DNA from: Sphaerisporangium corydalis
GTDB lineage: Bacteria > Actinomycetota > Actinomycetes > Streptosporangiales > Streptosporangiaceae
Assembly: GCF_025506355.1 (NCBI RefSeq)
Contig: NZ_JANZYP010000006.1
Span: 1 to 64,000, forward strand
Length of the DNA: 64,000 nt
Direction of reading: 5' to 3'
Positions 29,449 through 48,393 of this stretch are shown in pieces. The notes beneath the pieces were generated by a model. That model was not told the origin of the DNA. It searched no databases and was given only the letters and a program-made list of their open reading frames with translations. The position numbers were made by a program, and so were the translations under genes. Within the stretch, counting starts at the first letter, position 1, and each line of letters starts with the position of its first letter.

Positions 29449-29700
29449 TCAGCGGACGGCCCCGGGCGTGCCGGGCGGCCAGATGCCCACGTGCAGGAGC
29501 TCGTGGGCGTAGGAGTACGCCACGAGCTGGCTGCGGTTGCTGCAGGCGAACTGGTCGAGGAGCTTGCCGATCCGCTCCGCCACCGTGTACCTGCTGAGAT
29601 GCATCTCGCGGGCGATCCTCGTCGTCGTGTACCCCCGAGCCAGCATGACGATCAACCATCTGTCGCGATCATTTACCCGGTCGTCGGAAGCAAGATCCAT
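29449..29700 (-). CDS. Stand-alone LuxR-type HTH protein
   Basis: An 83-residue protein that is almost only a GerE/LuxR helix-turn-helix (LARGYTTTRIAREMHLSRYTVAERIGKLLDQ, then SNRSQLVAYSYAHELL). No sensory domain precedes it. ATG 29700 follows AAGGGACA; a longer reading to 29733 adds nothing recognisable. Single-domain LuxR proteins act as transcription activators or partner with larger regulators. It sits at the left edge of the RiPP cluster and is a candidate to bind the CCCACG-type palindromes at 31987 and 43505, but that is inference. Confidence 0.75.
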   Translation of the reverse strand: MDLASDDRVNDRDRWLIVMLARGYTTTRIAREMHLSRYTVAERIGKLLDQFACSNRSQLVAYSYAHELLHVGIWPPGTPGAVR

Positions 29701-29810
29701 GAGTGTCCCTTGGTCGGATCGACTTCGCCGCAAGCGCTGTGGGGAGGTGCCTCGTCACCGACTCTAGGCAGGCCCGCTTAACCACCGGTATGGCGTGACC
29801 ATGCGGCCGG

Positions 29811-31721
29811 TTATCGGGCGTGGCCCCGCCCTCCCGTGATCAGGGAGTCCCACGGGCGCGCCGGGGTGTCCGTCCCCCGGGGCGCCTTGCCCTGGAGGAT
29901 CTCCTCGTACAGCCTCCGGAGCACCGGGCTCGGGTCGATGCCGAGCTCCGCCGCGAGGTACCGGCGCACGGTCTCGAACTGCGACAGCGCCTCGGGCGCG
30001 CGCCCGCAGCCGGCCAGCGCCGTCATCCTGGCCGCCACCAGCCGCTCACGCGCCGGGAAGAACGGCACCAGGTCGTCGAGCCCGGTCAGGACCTCCACGT
30101 GCCTGCCCCGCTCGATCTCCAGCTCCGCCCAGTCCTCGTTGATCGTGAGATACAGCTCGGTGAACCTGGCGACCGCCTCGTCGATCAGCGGGACACCGGA
30201 GAACTCCGCGAGCGGCCGGCCCCGCCACAGGCGCGTGGCGTAGTCGAGCAGGGCGAGCGCCGTCTCGGCGTCCCCCCTGCGCCGCATGTCGCGACCGGCC
30301 CCGGCGAGGTGCCGGAACTTCAGCAGGTCGAGGTCGTCGGGCCCGGCGTCGAGCCGGTACCCCCAGCCCTCGTAGGAGATCCGGTCACCGATCTTCCTGC
30401 GCAACGCCGAGACGTACACCTGGAGGTTCTTGCGCGCCGTGGGCGGCGGACGCTCGCCCCACAGGGAGTCGATCAGCTGGTCGGTCGGGACCACCTGGTT
30501 CGAGCTCGACAGCAGGATGGCGGCCAGCAGCCGGGCCTTGCGCGCGCTGATGTGCACCATCGCGCCGTCCACCCGGATCTCCAGCGCCCCGAGCACGCAG
30601 GCGTCCATGCTCGGCGTCCTGTCCCGCGCCAGCCCGGTCCTGTCGGTGCCCAGCATCAGGAACCCGGCCAGGTCGATCGTGGAGGACCCCTGCCGGGTCG
30701 CCTGGCGGTGCAGCGTGCGCACCATGGACAACGCGGAGATGGAGACGTCGTCAACGCCGGCCTTGGACTCGAACCACCGCCAGTCGCCGTCCGGGTTGAC
30801 CTCGAGGAAGACCGGCCCGTCCTCGGTCAGCAGGAAGTCGAAGGCGCCGTAGCGCAGCCCCCACAGCTCGGCGAGCTTGTGCACCGCCTCCTCGACCGCC
30901 TCGGGGACCGCCACCGGGCGCACCGCCACCGACGCCGCGTCGCGCCAGATCGCCTCCGGCGAGGACTTGCCGACCTGGAAGGCCCGGATCTCGCCGTTCA
31001 CGTAGTACACGCGAAGCTCCGCCCGGTGGTCCACGTACTCCTGGACGATCATCGGCGTGTCCCGTACGGCCAGGTACCTGGCCCGGGCGCCGTCCATGAT
31101 CTCCGGGAAGATCCCCTCCATGGTGCCGGGCTCGGTCTCCACGAAGTGCCGGTTGAGCGCCTTGACGATGATCCGGTCGCTCGACAGGGCCGCGCTCGCC
31201 GCCCCCGGGTCGGTCGTGACGATCGTCCGCGGCGTGCGGATCCCCGCCCGCGCCGCGCCGTCGAGCTGGACCAGCCGTCCCGGGTCGGCGCCGCCGGGCA
31301 GCCGGACCGCCGACAGCGACGAGATCTGGTCGACCAGGGCGCACCAGGAGTCGGCCCGGAACAGCGACGGCGCCGAACCGTCCCCCTCGGGGATGGCCCG
31401 CGCCGAGAAGTGCCGTACCCAGGTGACCGTGGGGATGACGCGCCGCCCGTCCACCGTCAGCGACCCGTCCTCGTGCAGGGTGAGGATCCGCAGGTCGGCG
31501 ACCGACCCGGCGTCGATCCGCACGCTCGGCACGCCGAGGGTGCGCAGCCCCCGCTGGAGCACGGCGAACTCGGCGAGCCCCGCGCGATCCGCCAGGACCA
31601 CGCAGGGCAGGGGGACCGTGGGGTCGACGATCTCCTCCGGAAGGTGCCAGGTCACGCCGGGAGGGCCGGACGGCATCCGCAGGGTGTACGGAACATCGCC
31701 GGGTCCCCGATTGAAGTTCAC
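29811..31721 (-). CDS. ATP-grasp ligase (RiPP-maturase type) fused to a SARP/BTAD activator
   Basis: A 636-residue protein with two halves. Residues ~37-340 resemble the ATP-grasp enzymes of MvdD/graspetide-type RiPP maturation: pre-grasp segment PCVVLADRAGL, ATP Lys187 (IIVKALNRHF), QEYVDHRAELRV (Glu228, Glu235, Arg237), FDF with Asp295, and FLEVNPDG with metal ligands Glu307 and Asn309. These residues are intact, so catalysis is possible. Residues ~375-460 are an OmpR-like winged helix (LGALEIRVDG to YRLDAG) and ~465-620 a BTAD domain (AAELGIDPSPVLRRLYEE). I know of no characterised protein joining these two parts. I chose GTG 31721 (GGTGGA 7 bases upstream); ATG 31676 is possible. It is divergent from the ABC-YcaO operon. 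Confidence 0.85.
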   Translation of the reverse strand: MNFNRGPGDVPYTLRMPSGPPGVTWHLPEEIVDPTVPLPCVVLADRAGLAEFAVLQRGLRTLGVPSVRIDAGSVADLRILTLHEDGSLTVDGRRVIPTVTWVRHFSARAIPEGDGSAPSLFRADSWCALVDQISSLSAVRLPGGADPGRLVQLDGAARAGIRTPRTIVTTDPGAASAALSSDRIIVKALNRHFVETEPGTMEGIFPEIMDGARARYLAVRDTPMIVQEYVDHRAELRVYYVNGEIRAFQVGKSSPEAIWRDAASVAVRPVAVPEAVEEAVHKLAELWGLRYGAFDFLLTEDGPVFLEVNPDGDWRWFESKAGVDDVSISALSMVRTLHRQATRQGSSTIDLAGFLMLGTDRTGLARDRTPSMDACVLGALEIRVDGAMVHISARKARLLAAILLSSSNQVVPTDQLIDSLWGERPPPTARKNLQVYVSALRRKIGDRISYEGWGYRLDAGPDDLDLLKFRHLAGAGRDMRRRGDAETALALLDYATRLWRGRPLAEFSGVPLIDEAVARFTELYLTINEDWAELEIERGRHVEVLTGLDDLVPFFPARERLVAARMTALAGCGRAPEALSQFETVRRYLAAELGIDPSPVLRRLYEEILQGKAPRGTDTPARPWDSLITGGRGHAR

Positions 31722-31909
31722 TGAGAATCCACCGCCTCGCCTCGGGTATCCCATACAGACTCGCTTCGGCGGCGGCTCAGCTCCGAACCACGCGCGCACC
31801 AGGGGCGAGGGGCGGGCCGGGGAGGGACGGCGGCTCGTAGCCGCCGCTCGTGGTGACGTCGTCCATGCGCCGATGGTCATCGGACCGGCCGGGACGCACA
31901 ATCGCCCCT

Positions 31910-31947
31910 CTGTCGTTCGGCAGATGAACCACCTGTCGTTCGGCAGA
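31910..31947. repeat. 15-bp direct repeat, candidate SARP operator
   Basis: CTGTCGTTCGGCAGA occurs twice without mismatch (31910-31924 and 31933-31947), 23 bp start to start, about two helix turns. SARP proteins usually bind direct repeats on one face of the helix. It lies some 190 bases before the SARP-fusion start and 150 before the exporter start, so it could serve either or both genes. Each unit is also partly palindromic (CTG...CAG). Confidence 0.55.
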
Positions 31948-31986
31948 GGCGCCGTCCCGCGATCTCCGCCCGATCGGGATCGGTAG

Positions 31987-32032
31987 CCCACGTTCGTGGG
32001 GTTGTGCCACCTCCTTGTCACGAGGCGATACT
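31987..32032 (+). promoter_or_regulatory. Shared promoter module A, before the ABC-YcaO-TfuA operon
   Basis: The palindrome CCCACGTTCGTGGG (31987-32000; 6-2-6 geometry, perfect) is followed by TTGTGC (32002-32007, -35 position), 19 bases, then GATACT (32027-32032, -10 position) and CGACC. The same order and spacing occur on the minus strand before the precursor gene (43518 to 43473). A start point near 32039 gives a leader of about 60 bases before GTG 32099. The palindrome would then be centred near -45, as expected for an activator site. Confidence 0.7.
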
Positions 32033-32098
32033 CGACCATCGGCGGGCGCTCGGTGGACCGGCAGGGACGTGACGGACGGCGAAGTGAAGGGTGGGACC

Positions 32099-33040
32099 GT
32101 GTCGGGTGACGTGGTGACGGCCGAAGGGCTGACCAAACGCTATCGGCGAAGCGCCAGGCCGGCCGTGGACGACGTCTCGTTCGAGATCGCGCAGGGGGAG
32201 ACCATCGGCCTCCTCGGGCCCAACGGCGCCGGCAAGACCACCCTGATCAAGATGATCTGCGGGGTCACCGCCCCCACCTCAGGCCAGGTGCGCGTCTTCG
32301 GCGCCGACCCGGTGCGCCAGCCGGTCGAGGCCAAGAGCGGCATCGGGGCGATGCACCAGTCGGGCCCGTTCGACATGATGCTGCCCGCGCTCGACAACCT
32401 GCGGATCGCCGCCCGCTTCCGCGGCCTGAAGTGGCGCGACGCCCGGCCGTGGGCGCTGGAGGTGGCCGATTTCCTCGGCCTGACCGACGCGCTGCAGCGG
32501 CTGTGCTTCCAGCTCTCCGGCGGCCAGCGGCAGCGGCTGCAACTGGTGCGGGCGCTGCTCACCATCCCGCGGCTGCTGATCCTGGACGAGCCGTCCGCCG
32601 GGCTGGACGTGGCGGGGCGCCGCCAGGTCGAGCGCTTCGTGACCTGGCTGCGCGAGGAGCACGGGGTGACCATCCTGTGGACCAGCCACCACATCGACGA
32701 GCTTGAGCGCAACAGCCAGCGCGTCCTGGTCATCGACCGGGGGCGCGTGCTGCGCTTCGCCAAGCCGCGCGAGATCGTCGAGGAGTTCGGCAGCACCCAC
32801 ATGCTGGTGACCGTCGAGGACCCCGAGGCGGCGCGCGTCGTGGCGGCCTGGGCCGAGAAGGCCGGGCTGACGGCCACGGCCGCCGAGTTCGAGGTGCGCG
32901 TCCACGGCGCGAAGGTGCGGGACGTGCTGCCGGAGCTGTCGCGGCACTGCCAGGACCACGGGGTCGCGATCAGCGGGGTCTCCACCGCCTCGGACTCGCT
33001 GGAACGGGCCTTCCTCCGGATGACCGAGAACGAGGGGTGA
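32099..33040 (+). CDS. ABC transporter ATP-binding protein (antibiotic-export type)
   Basis: A 313-residue ATPase of the DrrA/CcmA type. It shows Walker A GPNGAGKTT, the Q-loop region MHQSGPF, signature LSGGQRQR, Walker B LLILDEPSAG and the H-loop TSHHIDEL, then a ~90-residue C-terminal extension typical of drug exporters. With the permease at 33043 it should export the finished peptide or give self-protection. GTG 32099 is used (AAGGG upstream); several longer in-frame starts exist. The operon promoter is at 31987-32032. Confidence 0.85.
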   Translation: MSGDVVTAEGLTKRYRRSARPAVDDVSFEIAQGETIGLLGPNGAGKTTLIKMICGVTAPTSGQVRVFGADPVRQPVEAKSGIGAMHQSGPFDMMLPALDNLRIAARFRGLKWRDARPWALEVADFLGLTDALQRLCFQLSGGQRQRLQLVRALLTIPRLLILDEPSAGLDVAGRRQVERFVTWLREEHGVTILWTSHHIDELERNSQRVLVIDRGRVLRFAKPREIVEEFGSTHMLVTVEDPEAARVVAAWAEKAGLTATAAEFEVRVHGAKVRDVLPELSRHCQDHGVAISGVSTASDSLERAFLRMTENEG

Positions 33041-33042
33041 CC

Positions 33043-33855
33043 ATGACCGAGACGCTGCGGTTCGACAACGCCCCCCCGGCCGGTACCGCGAAGGCGGCCG
33101 ATCTGTCGGCGGTGCTCTACCGGGAGTACGCGCTGCTCGCCCGCAACCGGGTGTACCTCATCCTCGGCCTGACGCCGATGCTGGTGTACCTGCTGCTGGT
33201 GAACACCTCGCTGAGCAACCTCGTCACCGTCGTCGGCTACCGGGGCGTCGAGGTGCGGTTCGCGGTCTTCCTGCTGCCCATGACGCTGGCGATGTCGGTG
33301 GTCAGCGCGGCGGGGACCTCCAGCATGGCGCTGTTCCAGGAGGAGCTGAGCGGGGTGGCGACGCAACTGTGGTCCTACCCGCTGCGCAGGTCGCGGTTCC
33401 TGCTCGGCAAGGTTATCGCCGGGGTGTCGCTGGTGCTGGCGCAGAGCCTGCTGGGCCTCGGCGTGGCGGTGCTCATCTTCGACTTCCCCTTCGACCTGGA
33501 AGGCTGGCTCGGCCTGCTGACGGCGCTCACGCTGGCCGCCCTGGCCTTCAACGGCCTGTACCTGGCGGTGGCGATCACGATCACCGACTTCCAGGCCTTC
33601 ATGGTGCTGTCGAACGTGTCGATCCCCGTGCTCGTCTTCAGCGCCCCGTCGCTCTACACCGTCGACAGCATGCCGACGGTGCTGCAGTGGGTGGCGGCGG
33701 TCAACCCGCTGACGTACGCGATCAACGGGATGCGGGACGCCGCGCTGTTCGGCTTCGCCGACGCGTGGGGGAACATGCTCGTGCTGGTCGTCATGGCGGT
33801 CGTGGGCTACACCGTGGGCGGCCGTGGCCTGCTCAACCGCGCACGCAACATCTGA
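33043..33855 (+). CDS. ABC-2 type permease
   Basis: A 270-residue protein with six membrane helices in the ABC-2 layout (LYREYALLARNRVYLILG before helix 1, and VNPLTYAINGMRDAALFG before the last helix, a common ABC-2 motif). It pairs with the ATPase encoded directly upstream. ATG 33043 is preceded by GAGGGG; a GTG at 33037 overlapping the ATPase stop is an alternative. Next comes the YcaO gene after 22 bases, which links export to peptide modification. Confidence 0.85.
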   Translation: MTETLRFDNAPPAGTAKAADLSAVLYREYALLARNRVYLILGLTPMLVYLLLVNTSLSNLVTVVGYRGVEVRFAVFLLPMTLAMSVVSAAGTSSMALFQEELSGVATQLWSYPLRRSRFLLGKVIAGVSLVLAQSLLGLGVAVLIFDFPFDLEGWLGLLTALTLAALAFNGLYLAVAITITDFQAFMVLSNVSIPVLVFSAPSLYTVDSMPTVLQWVAAVNPLTYAINGMRDAALFGFADAWGNMLVLVVMAVVGYTVGGRGLLNRARNI

Positions 33856-33877
33856 TCCCGTACAAGGGCGAGGGACG

Positions 33878-35035
33878 ATGCGGACAGACAATTCTCTTTC
33901 CTGGATGCTCTCTGACTCCGACCAGTCCAAGGTCCGGCTGCCGGGCACCGACAGGGCCCGCGACCCGGCGGCGACCTCGGAGATGGCCCGCCGCGCCGCG
34001 CGGAAGGTGGGCATCACCCGGGTCGCGGACATCACCAGGCTCGACACCATCGGCATCCCCACCTACCAGGCCATCAGACCGACCTCCAGGACGCTGGCCG
34101 TGTCGCAGGGCAAGGGGGTCACCCCCGAGCTGGCGAAACTGTCGGCGACGATGGAGGCCGTCGAGCTCTGGCACGCCGAGCAGCCCATGCCCGCGATCGC
34201 GACGGCCTCCCCGCGCGAGGTCGCGGGGCACCTCGGGTACGACGTCCGCGACCTGCCGCTCTCCACGCCGACCGTGCTGCACGACGGGCTGCCGCTGGAC
34301 TGGGTCGCCGGCTGGTCGCTGGTCGACGGCGCCGAGACGCTCGTGCCCCGCGACGCGGTGGCGTTCACGCTCGCGCGCAGGCAGGGCTGGAACCCGCCGG
34401 TGTTCTTCGAGTCCACCAACGGCCTGGCCAGCGGGAACACGCTCGTGGAGGGCATACTGCACGCCCTTTACGAGGTGATCGAGCGGGACGCCGTGACGGC
34501 GTCGCTCACCGGCGGCGACCGGGGCGTCCGCGTCGGACCGGCCACGCTGGGGTCGCCGGTCGTCGACGAGCTGTGCGCGATGCTCGCGCGGGCCGGGGTC
34601 GCCCTGGAGGTCAGGTCCCTGCCGTCGGCCACGGGGGTGCCGTGCTTCCTGGCCCGGATCACCTGCGAGGACTACCCCCCGCCGTTCCTCGGCTACGGCT
34701 GCCACCTCAGCTCCGAGATCGCGCTCACCCGGGCGATCACCGAGGCCGCGCAGTCCAGGCTGGGCTACGTCTCCGGGGCGCGTGACGACCTGCGGCCGGA
34801 GGTCCACAAGGACCCGGGCCCGAGGCGTGCGCCGGTCCCGGCGGCGGACGGCGAGGCGATCCAGGAGGCGCCAGCGCACGGCAGCCTGGTCGACGACCTG
34901 GAGGACGTGGTCAAGCGCGCCGCCGTCGCGTTCTCCCACGCCCCGCTCGTCGTCGACCTGACCAGGGACGACATCGGGGTGCCCGTCGTCAGAGTCGTGG
35001 CGCCCGGCAGCCGCGTCATCCCGGAGGTGTTCTAG
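33878..35035 (+). CDS. YcaO-domain cyclodehydratase/thioamide synthetase
   Basis: A 385-residue YcaO protein. ATP/Mg motifs are visible: SATMEAVELWHAE around residues 89-101, ALYEVIERDA near 195, and ALTRAITEAAQSR near 282. It lacks the Pro-rich PxPxP tail of azoline-forming YcaO enzymes and ends SRVIPEVF. YcaO proteins activate a backbone amide with ATP; with a TfuA partner, as here, the known outcome is a thioamide (thioviridamide family, McrA glycine). With Cys as nucleophile it could instead make thiazolines on the CLC core. No separate E1/ocin-ThiF leader-binding partner is present. ATG 33878 follows GCGAGGGA. Confidence 0.85.
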   Translation: MRTDNSLSWMLSDSDQSKVRLPGTDRARDPAATSEMARRAARKVGITRVADITRLDTIGIPTYQAIRPTSRTLAVSQGKGVTPELAKLSATMEAVELWHAEQPMPAIATASPREVAGHLGYDVRDLPLSTPTVLHDGLPLDWVAGWSLVDGAETLVPRDAVAFTLARRQGWNPPVFFESTNGLASGNTLVEGILHALYEVIERDAVTASLTGGDRGVRVGPATLGSPVVDELCAMLARAGVALEVRSLPSATGVPCFLARITCEDYPPPFLGYGCHLSSEIALTRAITEAAQSRLGYVSGARDDLRPEVHKDPGPRRAPVPAADGEAIQEAPAHGSLVDDLEDVVKRAAVAFSHAPLVVDLTRDDIGVPVVRVVAPGSRVIPEVF

Positions 35036-36477
35036 TGAGCCCCGCGAAGGTGGTCGTGTACGCCGGGCCGACGATCTCCCGCGAGGAGGTGCTCGGCGTG
35101 GTCCCGCAGGCGCGGGTGCGCCCGCCCGCCGCACGGGGCGACCTGCTCAAGGAGGAGTGGGGCCGGGACGACACCGCCGTCATCATCGACGGCTACTACC
35201 GCGAGCGGCTGTCGGTGGGCCACAAGGAGATCCTCTGGCTGCTCGACGCGGGCGTGAACGTCATCGGCGCCGCGAGCATGGGCGCGCTCCGCGCTGCCGA
35301 GCTGAGCCCCTACGGCATGACCGGCGTCGGGTCGGTGTACCGCATGTACGCGACCGGCGAGGTCGACGGGGACGACGAGGTCGCGATCCTGCACGGGCCC
35401 GCCGAACGGGGGTACCCCGCCGGCACGGTGGCCATGGTCAACCTCCGCTACGGCTGCCAGGAGGGGGCCAGGACGGACCTGGTCCCGGCGGCGGCCGGTG
35501 AGCGCATCGTCGAGGTGGCCAAGGCCAGGCCGTTCACCCACCGGACGTGGGACGAGCTGGCGGGCGAGCTGGGCTGCGGCGACCACGACGCGCTGCGCAC
35601 GCTGGAGCGGATGATCGGGACGGGCGCGTGGGACCTGAAGCGCCTGGACGCGCTGTCGGCCCTGCGAACCGCCACCCGCCGGGCCGATGTGTCCGGTACG
35701 CGGGCGGGCGGCGAGGTCCTGCACGGTGTGTCCGGTACGCGGGCCGCTGACCCGGCCGATGCGCGGGCCGCTGACGAGGCCCCGGCCGATGCGTGGGCCG
35801 CTGACGAGGCCCCAGCCGGTGGGTGGGTCGCCGACGAGGCGCTGACGGGGGTCATCCACTACGAGGCGCTCAGGTGGCGGTCGACCCGCGAGTACGCGCC
35901 GGGCAGGTGGATGTCCGACCTCGACGTGCTGAACGCGGCGCGGCTGTTCGGCGAGGACTACCCCCGGCTGCACGAGGAGGTCCTCACCGGACTCCTCGCG
36001 GGCTTCGCCGAGGCCCAGGGCCTGGAGGTGGACGCGTACGCCCGCGCCCGGCTCGGGGCCGGCGAGGACCCCGATCTGCCGCCCGCCCTCGCCTCCTGGC
36101 TCACCGGCGCCGAAGCGGCCACGCTTCCGGTCGCCGAGCGGCTGCGGCTGGTCATGGTGCGGGTGTGGCCGGTCTGGCAGTCGGCCGACTGGCGGCCGGA
36201 CGTCCTCGCGCGGGTCAAGGAGTCGAGCCGGTGGGCCGAGTGGACGGGCCTGGTCGCCCACGCCGACGAGGTCGCGGAGAAGACGCGCGGCCGGGTGGTC
36301 GTCCCGCCACCGGAGGTCTGCGCGAAGCTCTTCCTGCGGCACTGGAAGCGGGGCGGGACCTCGGCGGAGGTCGAGATGGCCCGGCGGGGGTTCTTCGGCA
36401 TGGAGGACCTGGGCCGGACCGTGACCAGGTTCTTCGCCATGGACGTCCAGAACGCCCGCGCCGCCAGGACCCGCTGA
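35035..36477 (+). CDS. TfuA-like protein with extended C-terminus
   Basis: A 480-residue protein. The first ~215 residues are a TfuA domain (VVVYAGPTISREEVLG, IIDGYYRERLSVGHKEILWLLDAGV, GAASMGALRAAEL, MYATGEVDGDDEVAI). TfuA partners assist YcaO enzymes in thioamide formation, probably by handling the sulfur source. The C-terminal ~210 residues (from VIHYEALRWRSTREY) are helical and contain no motif I know; some TfuA proteins carry such tails. A linker between the halves holds three 30-bp repeats. The GTG start shares one base with the YcaO stop (TAGTG), so the pair is translated together. Confidence 0.8.
   Translation: MSPAKVVVYAGPTISREEVLGVVPQARVRPPAARGDLLKEEWGRDDTAVIIDGYYRERLSVGHKEILWLLDAGVNVIGAASMGALRAAELSPYGMTGVGSVYRMYATGEVDGDDEVAILHGPAERGYPAGTVAMVNLRYGCQEGARTDLVPAAAGERIVEVAKARPFTHRTWDELAGELGCGDHDALRTLERMIGTGAWDLKRLDALSALRTATRRADVSGTRAGGEVLHGVSGTRAADPADARAADEAPADAWAADEAPAGGWVADEALTGVIHYEALRWRSTREYAPGRWMSDLDVLNAARLFGEDYPRLHEEVLTGLLAGFAEAQGLEVDAYARARLGAGEDPDLPPALASWLTGAEAATLPVAERLRLVMVRVWPVWQSADWRPDVLARVKESSRWAEWTGLVAHADEVAEKTRGRVVVPPPEVCAKLFLRHWKRGGTSAEVEMARRGFFGMEDLGRTVTRFFAMDVQNARAARTR
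35755..35844 (+). repeat. Three in-frame 30-bp repeats in the TfuA linker
   Basis: Units at 35755-35784, 35785-35814 and 35815-35844 encode versions of ADAWAADEAP. The first two differ at two bases and the third is more diverged, so the array grew stepwise. Just before it, VSGTRA is also doubled (around 35686 and 35728). Confidence 0.8.
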
Positions 36478-36493
36478 ACATGGCCCCGCACTC

Positions 36494-39049: not shown

Positions 39050-39096
39050 ATTTCCAGGTGACAAAACGGGGCGAATTGGGGTCCACAGGTGAGGTG

Positions 39097-41201: not shown

Positions 41202-41480
41202 TCATGCCGGGCGCTCTTCGATCAGCTCGCTCTCGATCATGGTGCCGATGAAGTCGTGCACGTCCGTCCGGATGCGCCTGCTCACGGCGGTGTTGCTGCC
41301 GGCGAACTCGTGGGACAGCTTCGAGACGATCGGCTCACGCTCCCCGTCGCTCTCGACGAGCATCCAGATGCGGGAGCCCGTCGAGTTCAGAGTGCGGAAA
41401 TCCCCGGTCTCGGTGTGGTACAGCGAGATGCCTTCGGCGGTCTCCTGCCATATCACTGCGTCGTTGATTCGGAGCGACAC
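41202..41480 (-). CDS. PqqD-like RiPP recognition element
   Basis: A 92-residue PqqD-family protein (INDAVIWQETAEGISLYHTETGDF, LNSTGSRIWMLVES, VSRRIRTDVHDFIGTMIESELIEE): three strands and three helices, the small winged fold that binds RiPP leader peptides and delivers them to the tailoring enzyme. GTG 41480 is supported by GGAGG 7 bases upstream. It lies 12 bases after the radical SAM gene, its likely partner, and it may also serve the YcaO enzyme, which lacks its own leader-binding protein. Confidence 0.85.
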   Translation of the reverse strand: MSLRINDAVIWQETAEGISLYHTETGDFRTLNSTGSRIWMLVESDGEREPIVSKLSHEFAGSNTAVSRRIRTDVHDFIGTMIESELIEERPA

Positions 41481-41492
41481 ACTTCACCTCCG

Positions 41493-42953
41493 CTATACCG
41501 GCGTTATGGGGAGCAGTTCGCCGAGCTTGACGACGTTCGGCGAGGGCGGGACATAGGTCTTCCAGTCGTCGAAGACCGGGTGCACGTCACCGTTGGCGAC
41601 CAGGAGGGGCGTAGTCATCTCGACGTTCTTCTTGGCGAGCTCGGCGGGGCTGATCCCCGCCTCCAGCCAGAGCTGCGTGGCCAGGCCGTGCCGCAGGATC
41701 CTGCACTGGTGCCGGCTGTTGCGCCGCAGGTCGCCCGACTCCGCCATGTGGGCGGCGCGGCACCCGCCGCCGCAGGACGACTTGATGTAGCACTTGGCGC
41801 AGTCGGCGTGGAAGTCGCCGCCGAACACCGAGCTGTTGCGCATGTCACGCAGGACCGGGCTGGCGAAGGTCTCGGCCAGCGACTGCCGCCGCAGGTTGCC
41901 CGCGTGGTGCGGCCGGCCGGTGACGAGCTTGCACGGGTAGACGTCGCCCAGCGAGTTGATGTAGATCTCGTTGCCGCCCATCCCGCAGTTGGCCCGCACC
42001 GAGCACGGCGACATCGCCTTGGGGCCGTCGGGGCTCAGCTTGCCGGCGGCGGGCGAGGTCCAGGCGATCTCCTGGATCCGCATGTGGTCCTGCCAGCCGA
42101 AGTCGTACTCGTCGCTCACCCCCCGGCCCAGGTTGTTGTGGTACATCAGCCGGATGCTGTGGACGTCGAGCCCCTCGATGAACGTCGCGAAGTCCTCGAG
42201 CTCGTCGATGTTGTCCGAGGTGACGATGTGGTTGATCTTCGGTACGACGCCGGCCTCGTTGAGGAGCTGGAGGGCGCGGTAGGTCTTGTCGAACGAGCCG
42301 GCGCCCCGGGTGCGGTCGTGCGTCTCGGCCGTGCCGCCGTCGACGCTCACCGTCACGGAGTTGAACAGCTCGGCGAACCGCTGTGCCACCTCCGGCTTCC
42401 TGATCATCGTGGCGTTGGTGACGATGTTCGACTTCAGGCCCCGGGAATCGGAGTACTCCACGATCTGGAACAAATCTTTTCTGAGCATCGGCTCGCCGCC
42501 GGTGAACACCAGGATCTCGGCCCCGAAGTCGGCGATCTGGGAGACCAGGTCGAGCGATTCCGCGGTATTGAGCTCACCCGGCAGGCATTTCTCCGACGAG
42601 GCGTAGCAGTAGGGGCAACGGAGGTTACAGCCGTCGGTGATGGCGTAGTAGACCTGGCGGAGCGGCGGCTCCTTTATCCGTACCGTCGGGTGTTTCCCGT
42701 TGTAATAGACGATCCAGCTCAGAATGAGTTTGGCGAGCGCCCGTTCGGTCTCGTCGGTCTGCTCCAGCGGCGCCGGCTCCCCGCCGGCCCGCGGCCGGGC
42801 CAGGGCGGAAAGGACGCCGAACTCACGCGGATTGAGGACGCACCGACCGCCCACATGCGGATTGACCACCAGGTGGTCGTCGTCGTGCACGAAGTAGGTG
42901 AGGCCTTCGGGCACGTCGAACAACGCGCGGTTTCCGGCCAGCTTCCCAGGCAT
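41493..42953 (-). CDS. Radical SAM/SPASM peptide maturase
   Basis: A 486-residue enzyme. The radical SAM cluster motif CNLRCPYC uses Cys109, Cys113 and Cys116; GGEP follows in the SAM-binding strand (VFTGGEPML). The C-terminal SPASM region has the Cys pattern for extra Fe-S clusters (CSVRANCG, GDVYPC, then CAKCYIKSSCGGGC and a last Cys). Residues 1-90 include a PqqD-like stretch (VNPHVGGRCVLN), as in fused maturases. Such enzymes make thioether, C-C or C-N links or epimerise residues. The adjacent Cys-containing precursor makes a sactionine-type or Cys/Trp link plausible. ATG 42953 follows GAAGGGGA. Confidence 0.88.
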   Translation of the reverse strand: MPGKLAGNRALFDVPEGLTYFVHDDDHLVVNPHVGGRCVLNPREFGVLSALARPRAGGEPAPLEQTDETERALAKLILSWIVYYNGKHPTVRIKEPPLRQVYYAITDGCNLRCPYCYASSEKCLPGELNTAESLDLVSQIADFGAEILVFTGGEPMLRKDLFQIVEYSDSRGLKSNIVTNATMIRKPEVAQRFAELFNSVTVSVDGGTAETHDRTRGAGSFDKTYRALQLLNEAGVVPKINHIVTSDNIDELEDFATFIEGLDVHSIRLMYHNNLGRGVSDEYDFGWQDHMRIQEIAWTSPAAGKLSPDGPKAMSPCSVRANCGMGGNEIYINSLGDVYPCKLVTGRPHHAGNLRRQSLAETFASPVLRDMRNSSVFGGDFHADCAKCYIKSSCGGGCRAAHMAESGDLRRNSRHQCRILRHGLATQLWLEAGISPAELAKKNVEMTTPLLVANGDVHPVFDDWKTYVPPSPNVVKLGELLPITPV

Positions 42954-43022
42954 CCGTTCCCCTTCACGCTCCAGCGGCAGGCGCGGCCCCGGACCGTTGC
43001 CGGGGGGCACGCGGCCGGGGCC

Positions 43023-43060
43023 GCGCCTGCGAGCCGTTCGGACGCGTTAGCTCCCGATCC
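43023..43060. repeat. Copy A of a 38-bp repeat derived from the precursor 3' end
   Basis: 36 of 38 bases match 43141-43178. On the minus strand it repeats the codons for SGAN of the precursor, but where the precursor has its TAG stop this copy has GCG. It lies past the GC tract, 70 bases before the radical SAM gene. Confidence 0.8.
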
Positions 43061-43065
43061 CGATA

Positions 43066-43140
43066 CGGCCCCGGGGCCCCCCCCCGCCCCGGGGGCGGTC
43101 GGGGCCCGGGGGGGGGGGGGGGGGGCCCGGGGCGGGCCCC
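43066..43140. other. Extreme GC tract with an 18-base G run
   Basis: A 75-base stretch of almost only G and C, including 18 consecutive G (43108-43125) flanked by CCC on both sides. On the transcript of the precursor operon this would be a C run within strong self-complementary sequence, and could act as an attenuator between precursor and maturase genes. Equally, homopolymers of this kind are a known sequencing or assembly artefact, and the flanking 38-bp repeats make a mis-join plausible. Confidence 0.7.
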
Positions 43141-43178
43141 GCGCCTGCGAGCCGTTCGGACTAGTTAGCTCCCGATCC
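43141..43178. repeat. Copy B of the 38-bp repeat, containing the precursor stop
   Basis: This copy overlaps the last codons and the TAG stop of the precursor gene (minus strand). The distance to copy A is 118 bp. Confidence 0.8.
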
Positions 43179-43433
43179 GGATCCGGACCAGGCTCCACAC
43201 AGGCAGGACGCCGCCGCGTCGAGGTCGTGCGCCTCGACCTCGGGGGTGGTCCACTGCCCGTCCCCGGAGTGCGCCATCACCTCAGGCAGGACGGCGGGAA
43301 GCCGGGACTTCAGGGAGACGAGCAGGTCGGTCTCCTCGCGGGTCAAGGTGGCGAACGCCTCCTCGATCTCCGGGCGGGTCGAGCTGCTCAGGACTCCGGC
43401 ATCGCGCAGAGTTTGCCTCGGATCGAAGGCCAT
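43161..43433 (-). CDS. RiPP precursor peptide with CLCGAW core
   Basis: A 90-residue peptide. Residues 1-52 are an acidic, helical leader (LRDAG near 9-13, FATLTREETDLL at 27-38, SLKSRL at 40-45). Residues 53-72 form an acidic linker, and the C-terminus reads AAASCLCGAWSGSGSGAN (73-90), with the only two Cys at 77 and 79 and a Trp at 82. This is where RiPP cores sit, directly upstream of the radical SAM and PqqD-like genes. Cys77, Cys79, Trp82 and the Ser/Gly tail are the likely modification sites. AGAGGTG precedes ATG 43433, and a strong promoter module lies 40 bases further up. Confidence 0.85.
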   Translation of the reverse strand: MAFDPRQTLRDAGVLSSSTRPEIEEAFATLTREETDLLVSLKSRLPAVLPEVMAHSGDGQWTTPEVEAHDLDAAASCLCGAWSGSGSGAN

Positions 43434-43472
43434 GCCTTCACCTCTCTATCTGGTGAGATGCGTTGCAGGTCG

Positions 43473-43518
43473 AGTATGGGCCGACGGCGACAAGGTGGCA
43501 CAACCCCACAAACGTGGG
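43473..43518 (-). promoter_or_regulatory. Shared promoter module B, before the precursor operon
   Basis: Read on the minus strand: palindrome CCCACGTTTGTGGG (43518-43505, one mismatch from perfect), TTGTGC (43503-43498), 19 bases, CATACT (43478-43473), CGACC. It matches module A at 31987-32032 in order and spacing, although the 19-base spacers are only partly similar. The expected start near 43466 gives a ~33-base leader before the precursor ATG. Confidence 0.7.
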
Positions 43519-43575
43519 CTCGCCATCGGCATTTTCAAAAGCGATGCGGAAACGCGTGAAAGGCCGGACGGCAAC

Positions 43576-43609
43576 CACACGAACGTGGGTGCCCGGACCA
43601 CTTGTGGTC
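43576..43609. promoter_or_regulatory. Two further 6-2-6 palindromes in tandem
   Basis: CACACGAACGTGGG (43576-43589) shares 17 of 18 bases with the site at 31987 including its CAACC flank. GACCACTTGTGGTC (43596-43609) is a perfect 6-2-6 palindrome with its centre exactly 20 bp further on. They lie 94-127 bases before the leader-like peptide gene and probably control that plus-strand operon. No clear -10/-35 pair like modules A and B follows. Confidence 0.55.
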
Positions 43610-43702
43610 GCCGATCGGCCGTTTCAGGCTTATCGCGCAGGACGAAATCCAAACGGCAGGTTTCCCGCGCCCCGGACCGGTCGCCGACGAAAGGGAGAGT
43701 CG

Positions 43703-43903
43703 ATGAACAGAACCGGATCGGGCACGTTCGACGCCCTGGCCAAGCTGCGCGCGGCGGGGCACCCCATCGACCTGCTCGACGAGCGGCAGCGAAGGGTCTT
43801 CGCCGAGCTCTCCGAGACCGAGGTCGCGCTGCTGAACTCGATCAAGAAGCGCCTGGACGACACGGCGGGCGAAGTGGAAGGACAGGAGCTCAAGCTCGTA
43901 TGA
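43703..43903 (+). CDS. Leader-like peptide without a core
   Basis: A 66-residue acidic helical peptide. Residues 9-58 align without gaps to residues 3-52 of the precursor at 43161, with 18 of 50 identical (for example Phe9, Leu15-Arg16, Ala18-Gly19, Phe33-Ala34, Leu43-Leu44, Ser46, Lys48, Arg50-Leu51). It then stops after EVEGQELKLV, with no Cys and no core. I recall that database entries exist for such short peptides under the name aroma-sacti cluster domain, but could not check this. It may be a decoy or competitor for the leader-binding protein, a sensor partner, or a structural subunit. ATG 43703 follows AAAGGGAGAG; the stop overlaps the next start as ATGA. Confidence 0.8.
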   Translation: MNRTGSGTFDALAKLRAAGHPIDLLDERQRRVFAELSETEVALLNSIKKRLDDTAGEVEGQELKLV

Positions 43904-46900
43904 CCGGCAAGGGCCCGAGACCCGCCCGTCGTCACATCGTGGTCCTGTTCATCGACATCGTCGGGTCCACCGAACTCGCCGAGCGCCTCGACCCTGAGCT
44001 GCTGCTGCACATCCTGGAGCGCTACTACGCAGCCTGCCGGACGGAGATCTCCGAGCACGGCGGCGTCGTGGAGAAGTACATCGGCGACGCGATCATGGCG
44101 GTTTTCGGCGTGCCCGCCGCCCGGGAGGACGACGCGCTGCGTGCGGTCCTCACCGCGCACGCGGCGATGTCGGCCGTCCACCGGCTGGGCGCCGAACTGG
44201 CCCCGACCCACGGGGTCCGGCTGGACGCCCACTGCGGCATCGCCTTCGGTGAGGTGATGGTCGTCGGCGCGCCCGGCCCGGACGTGCGCGTGATCGGGGA
44301 CACGGTCAACACCGCGAGCCGCCTGCAGTCCGCGGCGGCGGCCGGCGAGATCCTGCTGGGCGGCGAGGTCGCCCGGCTGGTCCGGCACCGCGCGGTGCTG
44401 GAGGAGGTCCCCCCGCTCCGGCTCAAGGGCAAGAAGGACCCGGTGCGCGCGTGGCTGCTGGTCGGCGTGAAGCCGGACCGGGACGAGCCGGAGACCGGCA
44501 CGATCCCGCTGATCGGCAGATCCGAGGAGCTGCGCCAGCTCACCCAGATCCACGACCGGGCCCTGCGCCACCGCCAGTGCGGCATGGCGACGCTTCTCGG
44601 CGTCCCCGGCATCGGCAAGTCCCGGCTGGTCAGGGAGTTCCTGAACGACCTGCCCGCCGAGGTGGCCGTGCTCACCGGCCGGTGCCCCTCCTACGGCATC
44701 GGCGCCACCTACCGGCCCATCGCGGAGATGCTGGAGGCCGTCAACGGGGACTGGCCCGCCATCGCCGAGGCACTCGGTCCCGAGAGCGAGCGGGCGTTGC
44801 GCGGGCTGGCGGGCCCGGCCGCGGCGGACGACGCCGAGGCCCCGGGGATCGCGGAGATCGCGCAGGCCGTGCGGTCGTTCTTCGAGGTGGTCGCCCAGCG
44901 CCGGCCGCTGGTGGTGGTGCTGGACAACCTGCAGTGGGCCGAGCCGACCCTGCTGGACCTGATCGAGGACTGCGCGGCGTGGCTCGCCGACGTGCCCGTG
45001 CTCCTGGTCTGCGTGGCCCGGCCGGAACTGTACGAGATCCGTCCCTCGTGGGGAGGGGGCATGGCCTGCGCCATGTCGCTGGAGCTCGGCCCGCTGAGCC
45101 GGCCGAACATGGCACGGCTGGTCGCCGAGCTGTGCGCCGCGCGTGCCGACGTCGTCGCCCACGACGACGACACCCTGTACCGCAGGGTCGCCTACGGCTC
45201 GGACGGCAACCCGCTGTTCGCCGAGCTGCTGCTGGAGACCCTCGCCGAGGGGGCCGCCACCCTGCCGCCCACCATCCAGGCGCTGCTGGGCGCCCGGCTG
45301 GACCGGCTGGGCGAGGCCGAGCGCGAGGTGCTCGAAAGGGCCGCGACCGTCGGGCAGGCCTTCACGGTGGAACAGGTGGCGGCCCTGCTCACCGCCGGCG
45401 CCCCCGAGCCGGTGGCGCCGCTGCGGCGGCTCCAGCGCGACCGCCTGATCCGGCGCGGCGCGCTTCCCGGGTCGTTCGAGTTCACCCAGACCCTCACCCG
45501 CGAGACCGTCTACGCGCTGACGAGCAAGGAGCTGCGCGCGGACTGGCACCGGACGCTGGCCGACTGGTTCGGCGACCGGGCCGCCGGCGCCTCGGACGAC
45601 GCCCCGTTCGCGGGGTCGTCGTCGGGGGACGTCAGCCGGCACCTGCTCGCGGCCTGCCGGCTCACCCGTGAGGTGCGCCCCGGCGACCCACTCCTGCGCG
45701 AGCTGACCGACCGGGCCGCCGCGTCGCTCATGCGGGACGGCGGCGAGGCGTTGCACCGCAAGGACCTGCCGGCCGCGATCGCGCTGCTGGAGCTGGGGCG
45801 GGAGCTGCTCCCGGCGGGCAGGGGCGAGCACCGCTGGCTGGCCGTCCGCATCAGTGACGCGGAGCTGGCACGGGGGGAGGGCGCGCGTGCGGTGGCCGCG
45901 CTGGACCACGCCGAGGAGCTGCTGCCGGCCGACCCGCGCAACCTGCTCACCTGCGCGATCCAGCGGGAGGTCCTCGACCTGCGGTCGGGCGCCAGGGGCC
46001 CGGCGCTCGGACCCCTGCGGGAACGGCTGGCGGCCGACCCGCGTGACGACCTCGGCTGGTGCCGGTTCCACCAGCTCGAAGCCTGGATCCACATCGACGG
46101 CGGCCGGTTCGGCGCCGCCGACCTGGCGTTCCGTGACGGGCTCGACCGGGCCAGGTCGATGGGCGACCGCTACGAGGAGGACCGCCTGCTGGGCGGGCTG
46201 TGCGAGCTGGTGCAGTGGTCGCTCACCCCGGTGGCGGACGGGCTCGCGCTCTGCGCCGACCTGCTGGCCCGGTTCGCCGGCGACCGCGCCCTGCTGGTGC
46301 CGGTGCTCGTCACCCGGGCCCGCCTGCTGGCGCTGTCCGGCGACCTCGCCACCGCCCGCAGGTCGCTCGACACGGCCGCCCGCTACGCGGAGGAACTGCA
46401 CCTCGAGCTGTCGGCGATCGTGGTCGTCCAGGTGCGCGGACTGGTGGAGTCCCTGGCCGGGGACCACCAGGCCGCGAAGACCCTGTTCCGCCGGGCCGCC
46501 GCCGCGCTCCGCACCGTGGGGCACGGAGCGCCCGCCGCCACGCTGGAGGTCTACGCGGCCCGCGAGACGCTCCGGCAGGGAGACGTCCGGCAGGCGGACC
46601 TGGAGCTGGCGCGGGACGAGGCCACGCCGCGCCAGTTCCGCGGCGAGCTGGCCGCCATCGCGGTACGGGCCGCGATCGCGTCGTCCGACGGCGAGCACGC
46701 CGAGGCGCTGGGCGCCGCCGTGCGCGCGGCCGAGCTGATCGAGTCGACCGACGACCCGTGCCTGCGAGGCGACATCCTCTTCGCCATCGCCGAGGTCCAC
46801 CGGGCCGCCGGACGCGACCCGGCCGACGCCGCGCGGCGCGCGGCCGACGCCTACCTGAGCAAGGGCGCGAGCCTGCTCGCGCGCGGAGTACGTGACTGGA

Positions 46901-46920
46901 TGGGGGAGCCGTGTCCCTGA
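43900..46920 (+). CDS. Class III nucleotide cyclase fused to AAA ATPase and TPR-like repeats
   Basis: A 1006-residue signalling protein. Residues ~10-180 are a class III adenylate/guanylate cyclase with metal ligands Asp19 (LFIDIVGST) and Asp63 (EKYIGDAIM), purine-site Lys59 and Asp134, and transition-state Asn137 and Arg141 (VNTASRLQ), so it looks active. Residues ~200-560 are a STAND ATPase (Walker A GVPGIGKSR, Walker B VVVLDNLQWAEP). The rest is helical repeat (TPR-like). It is coupled by ATGA to the leader-like peptide gene and overlaps the protease gene by 10 bases. It may respond to the peptide or to ligand and signal through cAMP or cGMP. Confidence 0.85.
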   Translation: MTGKGPRPARRHIVVLFIDIVGSTELAERLDPELLLHILERYYAACRTEISEHGGVVEKYIGDAIMAVFGVPAAREDDALRAVLTAHAAMSAVHRLGAELAPTHGVRLDAHCGIAFGEVMVVGAPGPDVRVIGDTVNTASRLQSAAAAGEILLGGEVARLVRHRAVLEEVPPLRLKGKKDPVRAWLLVGVKPDRDEPETGTIPLIGRSEELRQLTQIHDRALRHRQCGMATLLGVPGIGKSRLVREFLNDLPAEVAVLTGRCPSYGIGATYRPIAEMLEAVNGDWPAIAEALGPESERALRGLAGPAAADDAEAPGIAEIAQAVRSFFEVVAQRRPLVVVLDNLQWAEPTLLDLIEDCAAWLADVPVLLVCVARPELYEIRPSWGGGMACAMSLELGPLSRPNMARLVAELCAARADVVAHDDDTLYRRVAYGSDGNPLFAELLLETLAEGAATLPPTIQALLGARLDRLGEAEREVLERAATVGQAFTVEQVAALLTAGAPEPVAPLRRLQRDRLIRRGALPGSFEFTQTLTRETVYALTSKELRADWHRTLADWFGDRAAGASDDAPFAGSSSGDVSRHLLAACRLTREVRPGDPLLRELTDRAAASLMRDGGEALHRKDLPAAIALLELGRELLPAGRGEHRWLAVRISDAELARGEGARAVAALDHAEELLPADPRNLLTCAIQREVLDLRSGARGPALGPLRERLAADPRDDLGWCRFHQLEAWIHIDGGRFGAADLAFRDGLDRARSMGDRYEEDRLLGGLCELVQWSLTPVADGLALCADLLARFAGDRALLVPVLVTRARLLALSGDLATARRSLDTAARYAEELHLELSAIVVVQVRGLVESLAGDHQAAKTLFRRAAAALRTVGHGAPAATLEVYAARETLRQGDVRQADLELARDEATPRQFRGELAAIAVRAAIASSDGEHAEALGAAVRAAELIESTDDPCLRGDILFAIAEVHRAAGRDPADAARRAADAYLSKGASLLARGVRDWMGEPCP

Positions 46921-47801
46921 CGCCCGCGAACACGCCGCCACCCTGGCGGCGGGAGAAACGCGCCCACTTCCCCGGGGTGCCCGCGTGGGGGCTGGCCACC
47001 ACGCGGCAGGCCCCGGAGCGCTTCCAGGTCAGCCCGCTGGCGGAGGTGACCAAGGAGTGGGCGTGGGGCGGCGCCGACGGCACGGGTGTGCGCGTGTGCG
47101 TGGTGGACACCGGCGTGGACGCGGCGCACCCGAGGGTCGGCGCCCTCGAACGGTCCTTCGGCGTCGTCAGCGTGGAGGGGGGCGGGCTGGCGGTGGCCTC
47201 GTGCGACCCGGTCGACCCGGCCGGGCACGGCACGGCCTGCGCCGGGGTGATCAGGTCGATCGCCCCGGGGGTGTCGCTCACCTCGCTGCGGGTGCTCACC
47301 GACGGGAAGACCGGCTCGGGCGACGCCCTCATGACCGGGCTGGCCTGGGCCATCGACGCGGGCTTCGACCTGGTCAACCTCAGCCTCTCCACCACGAGGT
47401 CGGACTTCCGGCAGTCCTTGCAGGAGCTCGCCGACCGCGCGTACTTCCGGCGCTGCCTGCTGGTCGCCGCCGCGCACAACATGCCCGTGCTCAGCTTCCC
47501 GTGGACGTTCTCCTCGGTGGTGTCGGTGGCCGCCCACGACGAGGCCGACCCGATGAGGTACTACTACAACCCCGCGCCGCCCGCGGAGTTCCACGCGCGC
47601 GGGGTGAAGGTGTCGGTCGCCTGGCCCGGCGGCCGGGAGATCCGCAGCACCGGCAACAGCTTCGCGGCACCGCACATCACCGGCATCTGCGCGCTCATCC
47701 TGAGCAAGCACCCCTGGCTCACGCCGTTCCAGCTCAAGACGGTCCTCTATCTGGCCGCGGACAACACCACGACGCAGAACGGAGAGGTACATGGCCCCTG
47801 A
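46911..47801 (+). CDS. Subtilisin-like serine peptidase (S8), cytoplasmic
   Basis: A 296-residue S8 peptidase with the full catalytic triad: Asp66 (VVDTGVD), His106 (GHGTACAG) and Ser250 (GNSFAAPHITG), and the oxyanion Asn in AAAHN. There is no signal peptide or propeptide, so it should work in the cytoplasm. Subtilases of this kind can remove RiPP leaders (as LanP does) or act in regulated proteolysis. Its operon with the leader-like peptide favours leader processing, but that is inference. GTG 46911 start. Confidence 0.82.
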   Translation: MSLTPANTPPPWRREKRAHFPGVPAWGLATTRQAPERFQVSPLAEVTKEWAWGGADGTGVRVCVVDTGVDAAHPRVGALERSFGVVSVEGGGLAVASCDPVDPAGHGTACAGVIRSIAPGVSLTSLRVLTDGKTGSGDALMTGLAWAIDAGFDLVNLSLSTTRSDFRQSLQELADRAYFRRCLLVAAAHNMPVLSFPWTFSSVVSVAAHDEADPMRYYYNPAPPAEFHARGVKVSVAWPGGREIRSTGNSFAAPHITGICALILSKHPWLTPFQLKTVLYLAADNTTTQNGEVHGP

Positions 47802-48393
47802 CGACTTCGACGGCACCGAGCACAGGTTGCTGCAGTCCATCGTCGAGGTGGCGCGCCACATGTTCGGCGCCGCCGCATCCTCCATCTTCCTGGTGGACCC
47901 CGACACCGGTGAGCTGGTCTTCGAAGCCGTCTCGGGCGAGGGGGAGAAGGAACTCGTCGGGAGCCGCTTCCCCGCGGGGACCGGGATCGTCGGCTGGGTC
48001 GCGGCGAGCGGGCAGCCGATGGTCGCCGACGACGTGTCGACCGTGGAGCAGTTCGCCCAGCACGCCGCCGAGTCCACCGGCTACGTCCCGCGCGTCATCA
48101 TGGCCGCGCCGCTGATCCGGTTCGAGGAGTGCATCGGCGTCCTTGAGGTGCTGGACCGCACCGCCTCCCGCAGCGAGCTGGACGACATCGAGCTCCTGGG
48201 GCTGTTCGCCATGCAGGCCGCGTGCGGCCTGGAGTTCCTGCTCAGGCTGCGGCGGGGCGAGGGCAGGGAGCCGGCCCACGACCCGCAGGCGCTCCTGCGG
48301 CGGATCGCCGAGCGGCTGCCGGGCCGGGCCCGTCCGTCGGACACGGCGGCCGTCCGCCTGCTCGCCATCGCCGACGAGCTCCTCGCCCCCTGA
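47791..48393 (+). CDS. GAF-domain protein
   Basis: A 200-residue protein whose residues ~12-150 form a GAF domain (LLQSIVEVARHMFGAAASSIFLVDP, GIVGWVAASGQPMVADDVS, PLIRFEECIGVLEVLDR). GAF domains bind cyclic nucleotides or other small ligands. Placed after a nucleotide cyclase gene it could read the cyclase product. The C-terminal ~50 residues are helical and carry no output domain. It overlaps the peptidase gene by 11 bases; the 3' end is duplicated in tandem. Confidence 0.8.
   Translation: MAPDDFDGTEHRLLQSIVEVARHMFGAAASSIFLVDPDTGELVFEAVSGEGEKELVGSRFPAGTGIVGWVAASGQPMVADDVSTVEQFAQHAAESTGYVPRVIMAAPLIRFEECIGVLEVLDRTASRSELDDIELLGLFAMQAACGLEFLLRLRRGEGREPAHDPQALLRRIAERLPGRARPSDTAAVRLLAIADELLAP

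Follow-up and report, generated by a model that had tools for sequence, protein, structure and literature searches.

Two convergent operons of Sphaerisporangium corydalis preceded by a common promoter-like block may form one RiPP pathway joining an StsB-type radical SAM maturase with YcaO and TfuA

The closest described relatives of the locus analyzed here, a pair of convergent operons for a putative ribosomally synthesized and post-translationally modified peptide (RiPP) in Sphaerisporangium corydalis (contig NZ_JANZYP010000006.1, positions 1 to 64,000; this whole stretch of 64,000 nucleotides (nt) is called the window), come from two fields. One is the StsA/StsB/StsC system of Actinomycetota, in which the tryptophan of the StsA WVKP motif is reported at position −15, and StsC binding is reported to be lost when W/V or K/P of this motif are altered (PMC12710340). 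Our locus resembles it in having a radical SAM enzyme and a precursor above the family cut-offs, a stand-alone PqqD-like RiPP recognition element (RRE), and a WxxP motif in 21 of 21 precursors, but it adds YcaO, TfuA, a cytochrome P450, an O-methyltransferase, and an ABC exporter, and its precursor carries an N-terminal leader domain that lies outside the 38-position StsA model. The other field is that of YcaO–TfuA thioamidated RiPPs, with which the window shares adjoining YcaO and TfuA genes of the expected families; the characterized classes listed in the accessible text of a recent account are thioviridamide-like peptides, thiovarsolins, thioamidated thiopeptides, chimeric lanthipeptides, and the std product, none of which is a sactipeptide (PMC13174530, May 2026).

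The cluster type itself is already in print as a prediction. The accessible text of a 2021 survey (Malit et al.; PMC8120280) lists two cluster families in Sphaerisporangium, Microbispora, and Herbidospora, labelled as ranthipeptides, that share with our locus YcaO–TfuA, a radical SAM/SPASM protein, a stand-alone PqqD, a P450, an O-methyltransferase, and a Cys-bearing precursor. An initial annotation of this DNA had expected a peptide of a new type if both operons act on the CLCGAW core; by this listing the combination is not new to print, which lowers the surprise. The same annotation knew of no characterized product that joins both chemistries with P450 and methylation. We found no characterized thioamide–sactipeptide in the open-licence literature, a corpus that mostly excludes subscription papers, and met the cluster family itself in surveys only. 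As far as the accessible text shows, the sactipeptide assignment, the common promoter, the flavoenzyme, and the companion peptide described below are new relative to print: the accessible family section of the 2021 survey mentions neither common promoter, flavoenzyme, nor companion peptide and names no Nonomuraea, and the accessible text of a 2019 survey of actinobacterial TfuA proteins mentions neither Nonomuraea, Microbispora, Herbidospora, nor P450 (PMC6511847).

The genome that contains the window comprises 9.48 Mb in 162 contigs. The precursor/radical SAM set lies on the minus strand and the YcaO/TfuA set on the plus strand, and domain scans of both operons recovered all genes named in the initial annotation, at or near the positions given there. 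The sactipeptide (StsB/StsA) identity, the flavin monooxygenase, the companion open reading frame (ORF), the ATP-grasp/SARP fusion, and the common promoter had been missed. The features of the two operons, along with the small LuxR gene, are as follows:

29449–29733, minus strand: short LuxR-type helix-turn-helix protein, 94 residues, candidate regulator of the common block (PF00196 27.5 bits; at 26 of 26 loci; start provisional)
31987–32035, plus strand: 49-nt promoter-like block before the ABC–YcaO–TfuA–P450–O-methyltransferase operon
32099–33040, plus strand: ABC transporter ATPase, DrrA-like (PF00005 110 bits; GTG in frame at 32099; start provisional)
33037–33855, plus strand: ABC-2 permease (PF01061 85.8 bits)
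33878–35035, plus strand: YcaO (PF02624 235.5 bits; nearest solved relative MJ1094)
35035–36477, plus strand: TfuA, 480 residues (PF07812 138.8 bits; Pfam domain at residues 52–171, then a long C-terminal part)
36494–37870, plus strand: cytochrome P450, PikC-like (PF00067 101.1 bits; PikC 257 bits)
37867–38901, plus strand: O-methyltransferase, CalO6-like (PF00891 152.3 bits; CalO6 324 bits)
39737–41161, minus strand: flavin-dependent monooxygenase (Lsd18/LasC 325 bits, MonCI 273 bits; at 26 of 26 loci)
41202–41480, minus strand: stand-alone PqqD-like RRE, StsC-like by position (PF05402 39.7 bits, cut-off 23.4; at 26 of 26 loci)
41493–42953, minus strand: StsB-family radical SAM/SPASM sactipeptide maturase (NF045574 924.8 bits, cut-off 625; PF04055 98.6 bits, PF13186 40.7 bits)
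43161–43433, minus strand: precursor peptide, 90 residues, core CLCGAWSGSGSGAN (NF045559 141.8 bits, cut-off 75; NF045560 71.1 bits, cut-off 30)
43470–43518, minus strand: 49-nt promoter-like block before the precursor operon

Because co-occurrence, the common promoter, and the gene arrangements in two relatives point in the same direction, we consider it likeliest, with a probability of about 0.62, that the two convergent operons represent one co-regulated RiPP pathway acting on one precursor. In an order-level sample of 297 genomes, StsB exceeded its cut-off in 27, with at least 862 bits in 26 of these, which we call the cluster genomes; the divergent genome G249 (locus L077) is among the 27 and outside the 26. 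YcaO and TfuA lie in the same stretch as StsB in 25 of the 26, which leaves G153 and G249 as the only exceptions within the 27. Conversely, a close YcaO (at least 66% identity) occurs in 25 of the 297 genomes and every time next to StsB, the next YcaO reaching at most 46%; the Fisher test on 25/1/0/271 gives p ~2e-35, with G249 placed in the "neither" cell and kinship ignored. The precursor, radical SAM enzyme, PqqD, flavoenzyme, ABC pair, and small LuxR gene are present in 26 of 26 cluster genomes (our own included), YcaO, TfuA, and P450 each in 25, and the O-methyltransferase in 21. As the gene set is conserved across the cluster genomes, these sequence comparisons exclude chance as its source. 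Named loci with the precursor number 17, or 16 without L021, and belong to Sphaerisporangium, Microbispora, Herbidospora, and Nonomuraea; YcaO is seen in 14 of the 16, and L007 and L014 end early but carry YcaO in longer stretches. The Clostridia locus L021 (36% over residues 41–90), which is unrelated, and G173/L078 (263 bits, under cut-off) were left out of the rows. In a class-level sample of 394 genomes, StsB was found at E ≤ 1e-120 in five, all from the family of our own genome. The initial annotation had named co-occurrence in related genomes as its test, and the outcome that the operons never co-occur is contradicted by the 25 of 26 cluster genomes that carry both.

The second line of evidence is regulatory. 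The blocks CCCACGTTYGTGGGGTTGTGCCACC and ATACTCGA, 49 nt each and identical at 38 of 49 positions, precede the two operons. Within the assembled genome of the window, a pattern from the 24-nt head matches just two places at ≤3 mismatches, each of them exactly and one per operon, compared with one match for the reversed pattern as a control. A search for the full block in 53 chosen genomes, with 46–52 nt allowed, returned 41 sites, all of 49 nt, in 25 of the 26 cluster genomes, 16 of which have both sites; none was found in the 27 other genomes (23 without StsB over cut-off, G249, and three of genus g79, which belongs to another family), and the reversed-pattern control gave none either. The cluster genome without a strict match, G074, has variant sites upstream of both its precursors. 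A palindrome, CCCACnTTnGTGkGG, precedes the ABC gene by no more than 300 nt in each of 25 genomes (G074 was not read there), and it precedes a precursor by no more than 300 nt at all 29 loci read, 26 from the cluster genomes and three from g79, against a background of 1.5% of random 320-nt stretches (3.8% for a looser, earlier pattern). At the level of sequence, these comparisons show both operons starting from the same promoter-like block. The strongest candidate for its regulator is the small LuxR protein, which occurs at every one of the 26 loci. An Rfam scan of the window at gathering scores gave zero matches. The common promoter offers a practical handle, as one regulator should switch on both operons, after which the product could be sought directly.

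Third, gene order in two relatives brings the two sets together: in G074 (L060), one precursor copy stands at the head of an ABC–ABC–YcaO–TfuA–P450 run, and in G168 (L071) YcaO–TfuA–precursor–precursor–radical SAM lie on a single strand, without P450 and O-methyltransferase. With the co-occurrence, the common promoter, and the position of a precursor at the front of the YcaO operon of L060, the two operons very probably belong to one pathway acting on the CLCGAW precursor, the case that the initial annotation had considered.

A rival explanation involves a second peptide, which is encoded in the neighborhood together with further genes:

29811–31721, minus strand: fusion of a graspetide-type ATP-grasp ligase domain with a SARP regulator (TIGR04187 103.3 bits, below the cut-off of 350; BTAD 122 bits; start provisional)
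39058–39780, plus strand: LuxR-type response regulator (PF00196 65 bits; at 16 of 26 loci)
43703–43903, plus strand: companion ORF, 66 residues, Cys-free, sharing the leader domain of the precursor, tail EVEGQELKLV (NF045560 78.1 bits; at 18 of 26 loci)
43900–46920, plus strand: adenylate cyclase domain/AAA ATPase, TOMM kinase-cyclase-like (PF00211 73.1 bits, PF13191 89.2 bits; TIGR03903 125.7 bits, below the cut-off of 705.75)
46911–47801, plus strand: S8 subtilase, candidate leader peptidase (PF00082 94.1 bits)
47791–48393, plus strand: GAF-domain protein (PF01590 65.1 bits)

One regulator could control two parallel peptides, with the 43161–43433 precursor becoming a sactipeptide alone and YcaO–TfuA, with the P450, modifying the companion or an unlinked peptide. 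StsB clusters without YcaO do exist, and the leader domain that the companion has in common with the precursor would suit such a division; we nevertheless regard it as unlikely. At 8 of the 26 loci (seven of one genus and G074), YcaO–TfuA accompany the precursor while the companion module is absent from the stretches read (L065 is truncated by a contig end), a precursor copy stands first in the YcaO operon of L060, and in G014 and G016 the companion peptide, ATP-grasp, SARP, cyclase/AAA, S8, and GAF genes lie together at another locus (L127, L128) without YcaO. A hidden YcaO substrate was sought by clustering 961 small ORFs (18–150 residues, ≤30% under known genes) from the intergenic gaps, both in the window and in 25 relatives, and there was no other conserved small ORF family among groups present in at least six genomes, a search that rarer or divergent peptides could escape. 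ORF groups of 23, 22, and 10 genomes were rejected as precursors, being frames through the common non-coding promoter, and three groups of six genomes were rejected as showing nothing precursor-like.

In NCBIfam profile scans, StsB is the best family by far for the radical SAM enzyme (924.8 bits, cut-off 625), and the precursor exceeds the cut-off of the StsA-related CxC model NF045559, with 23.4 bits on the StsA model proper, NF045558, under its cut-off of 42. The precursor consists of an aroma-sacti leader domain (NF045560, about residues 4–55, some 52 residues), the WxxP motif (W61, P64), and the core, with a spacing of 16 residues from W61 to C77. Residues W61, P64, C77, C79, W82, S83, G84, and G86 are unchanged across 21 of 21 aligned precursors, and this Trp is the sole invariant aromatic residue of the core. 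One of the precursor searches demanded W..PE and C.C..WS, so that invariance among its hits is partly built in, and it missed the second precursor of L071; the unbiased evidence comes from motif-free phmmer, the 21-sequence alignment, and tblastn counts. The structure model of the precursor has a helical, confident leader (90–95 for residues 1–40) and a disordered core, and a Foldseek search of it against the PDB gave six matches, none with E ≤ 0.001. A 67-bp near-duplicate (87%) of the precursor 3′ end flanks a long G run at 43002–43186, possibly an assembly artefact, and the gap between precursor and radical SAM gene is about 118 bases longer in the window than in L005.

As both proteins exceed the cut-offs of the StsB and StsA-related families, a sactipeptide is expected from them rather than a C–C link or a ranthipeptide. 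Where the initial annotation had left thioether and C–C links open, the maturase falls in the named StsB sactipeptide family. A ranthipeptide, in which the radical SAM enzyme would link Cys to beta or gamma carbons while YcaO–TfuA thioamidates, was the antiSMASH label of these clusters in 2021, as the accessible text has it (PMC8120280), and a SPASM domain is present. It is nonetheless quite improbable, for the StsB assignment speaks against it, as does the ranthipeptide maturase model PapB, on which the enzyme scores 96.4 bits against a cut-off of 340 (among the best 25 of 80 matching families). A weak comparison with solved enzymes points the same way, with 64.3 bits for the sactipeptide enzyme SkfB and 55.6 bits for the ranthipeptide-type enzyme 5wgg, which we take to be CteB.

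For the other half, the adjoining ycaO and tfuA genes (33878–36477, the pair being present in 25 of 26 cluster genomes) point to thioamidation. Among solved relatives, YcaO scores 111.4 bits with MJ1094, presumably a thioamidating enzyme, 53.2 bits with LynD, and 51.7 bits with TruD, which places it, as judged by such scores, closer to the thioamidating than to the azoline-forming enzymes. YcaO enzymes of other RiPPs do form azolines or amidines, and Cys and Ser occur in the core, but such a reaction, with TfuA as an accessory, is very improbable here, as TfuA accompanies YcaO in 25 of 25 genomes, the cyclodehydratase LynD scores 53 bits against the 111 of MJ1094, and neither a cyclodehydratase partner nor an azoline dehydrogenase was found among the 19 ORFs scanned in the window. 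In TfuA, S81 and K64 are invariant in 7 of 7 aligned proteins, like many other residues, and a Ser–Lys pair has been described for TfuA in the accessible text of PMC13185837. The TfuA structure model, made with seven rows, had a mean predicted local distance difference test (pLDDT) score of 58.9 and was not used. Our genome has other YcaO matches at C97:189646–192295, two neighbors (282 and 29 bits), and at C84:40195–41208 (331 bits).

Several observations weigh against one thioamidating pathway. In genus g79, StsB exceeds its cut-off in 3 of 199 genomes, and all three loci (L163–L165) have the precursor, radical SAM enzyme, PqqD, and flavoenzyme, while YcaO, TfuA, P450, and O-methyltransferase were not found in the 19.9 kb read (the rest of these genomes was not searched). 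G153 (L062) has kept P450 and ABC genes and is devoid of YcaO and TfuA, its best YcaO elsewhere reaching 43%, and the divergent StsB of G249 (683 bits, over cut-off) comes without YcaO–TfuA; searches of G249 for a close YcaO, for a precursor (tblastn), and for an S8 gene (E 1e-40) all came back empty. Because the sacti half also exists without YcaO, thioamidation appears dispensable for it, and by these gene contents the two are not obligate partners. In the radical SAM tree, whose sole outside row is G249 on a very long branch, the g79 enzymes are nested within YcaO-bearing rows, with 95/91 support with G074; at least three changes of the YcaO label are needed in this tree, and the flavoenzyme tree, which leaves out G249, needs two. 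On the trees, losses of YcaO and its late gain are thus equally likely. Whether or not a cluster has YcaO, its core looks much the same, CACGLWSGSG occurring in both G074 and G153, and the core therefore gives no pointer to the thioamide site. Co-regulation is no proof of a common substrate. A QhpG score of 33 bits against a cut-off of 240 for the flavoenzyme leaves the Trp oxygenation step a guess, and action on the same peptide and thioamide formation are predictions. G153 and genus g79 can serve as natural knock-outs for what thioamidation adds. The idea of YcaO–TfuA as a late add-on, suggested by its absence from g79, was dropped as to its direction, since the radical SAM tree nests g79 among YcaO-bearing rows. 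The divergent StsB gene in L077 is accompanied by a PqqD-like gene and an ABC pair, and in L163, L164, and L165 the gene after the flavoenzyme resembles a peptidase S9 on visual inspection of its sequence.

If the single pathway is correct, its course can be outlined from the enzyme families. The PqqD-like protein would hold the WxxP motif of the leader, the StsB-type enzyme would join the two core cysteines (CxC) to alpha-carbons, yielding a sactipeptide, and YcaO would activate a core backbone amide with ATP while TfuA would supply sulfide for the thioamide. The closest solved proteins of the flavoenzyme are Lsd18/LasC and then MonCI, which we take to be polyether epoxidases, and as Trp is the only invariant aromatic residue of the core, we propose it as the target: the flavoenzyme would oxygenate it, the P450 would oxidize further, and the O-methyltransferase, where present, would cap a hydroxyl. 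The S8 subtilase would then remove the leader, and the ABC pair would export the product. A similar logic is seen in QHNDH maturation by QhpD, QhpE, QhpG, and QhpF, which in the accessible description comprises radical SAM thioethers, a flavoenzyme acting on peptidyl Trp, a subtilase for the leader, and ABC export (PMC7876137), but the product there is a protein subunit and not a small peptide, and our flavoenzyme is nearer to Lsd18 than to QhpG. In its most specific form our proposal is tentative, and we put its chances somewhat short of even: the product would be the first thioamidated sactipeptide, of about 14–21 residues with two thioethers at CxC, at least one backbone thioamide, and an oxygenated, often O-methylated Trp, and beside it the SARP-fused graspetide-type ligase would modify the Cys-less peptide ending in EVEGQELKLV and couple the modified peptide to transcription. 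For the core of the window, CLCGAWSGSGSGAN, the calculated monoisotopic mass is 1268.491 in linear form and 1264.460 with two thioethers; adding one thioamide gives 1280.437, a further O 1296.432, and O together with CH2 1310.448. When DLDAAAS precedes the core, the values are 1911.773 (linear), 1907.741 (two thioethers), and 1923.719 (one thioamide in addition). Were the proposal true, alpha-thioethers and backbone thioamides would meet in one ribosomal product, and a flavin epoxidase-like enzyme would act on a peptide.

As for the companion, a peptide that lacks Cys but shares the leader domain suggests, together with the ATP-grasp/SARP fusion, a second peptide system. The companion ORF matches only the aroma-sacti and StsA-related models, its tail is EVEGQELKLV or nearly identical in its 18 loci and in L127 and L128 (one search demanded such a tail, another did not), and its stop codon overlaps the ATG of the cyclase/AAA gene, after which come the genes for the S8 subtilase and the GAF protein. 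In G014 and G016 the module has a locus of its own and is thus, by gene order, separable from the sacti/YcaO cluster. The ATP-grasp domain, whose TIGR04187 score falls well under the cut-off, aligns over its ATP-binding half with the graspetide ligases AMdnB (55 bits) and CdnC (52 bits), including a FDF..EVNP.G.W pattern, and from the linkage we propose the companion as its substrate. ATP-grasp and SARP are fused in the window and separate neighboring genes in L127, L145, and L154, and a SARP part next to the ATP-grasp was not found in L135 or L156. The Branch 6 ATP-grasp loci likewise combine ATP-grasp with YcaO, TfuA, a SPASM radical SAM protein, and adenylate cyclase, but the accessible text describes no such precursor and contains neither "SARP" nor "BTAD" (PMC8939145, 2022).

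Of 30 genomes searched for the S8 gene, 29 have it: all 26 cluster genomes, even where it is unlinked, and the three of g79, with G249 as the miss. In the order sample, 7 of the 271 remaining genomes carry it at ≥69% identity. Among NCBIfam models, mycosin (105.2 bits) and QhpE (94 bits) score highest for the subtilase, each under its cut-off, and the enzyme is the leading candidate to cleave the leader from both peptides. Other same-leader peptides occur in L129, L131, L132, and L133 beside other radical SAM-like, cyclase/AAA, S8, and GAF genes, those in L129 and L132 ending in GAGLW and GGALF.

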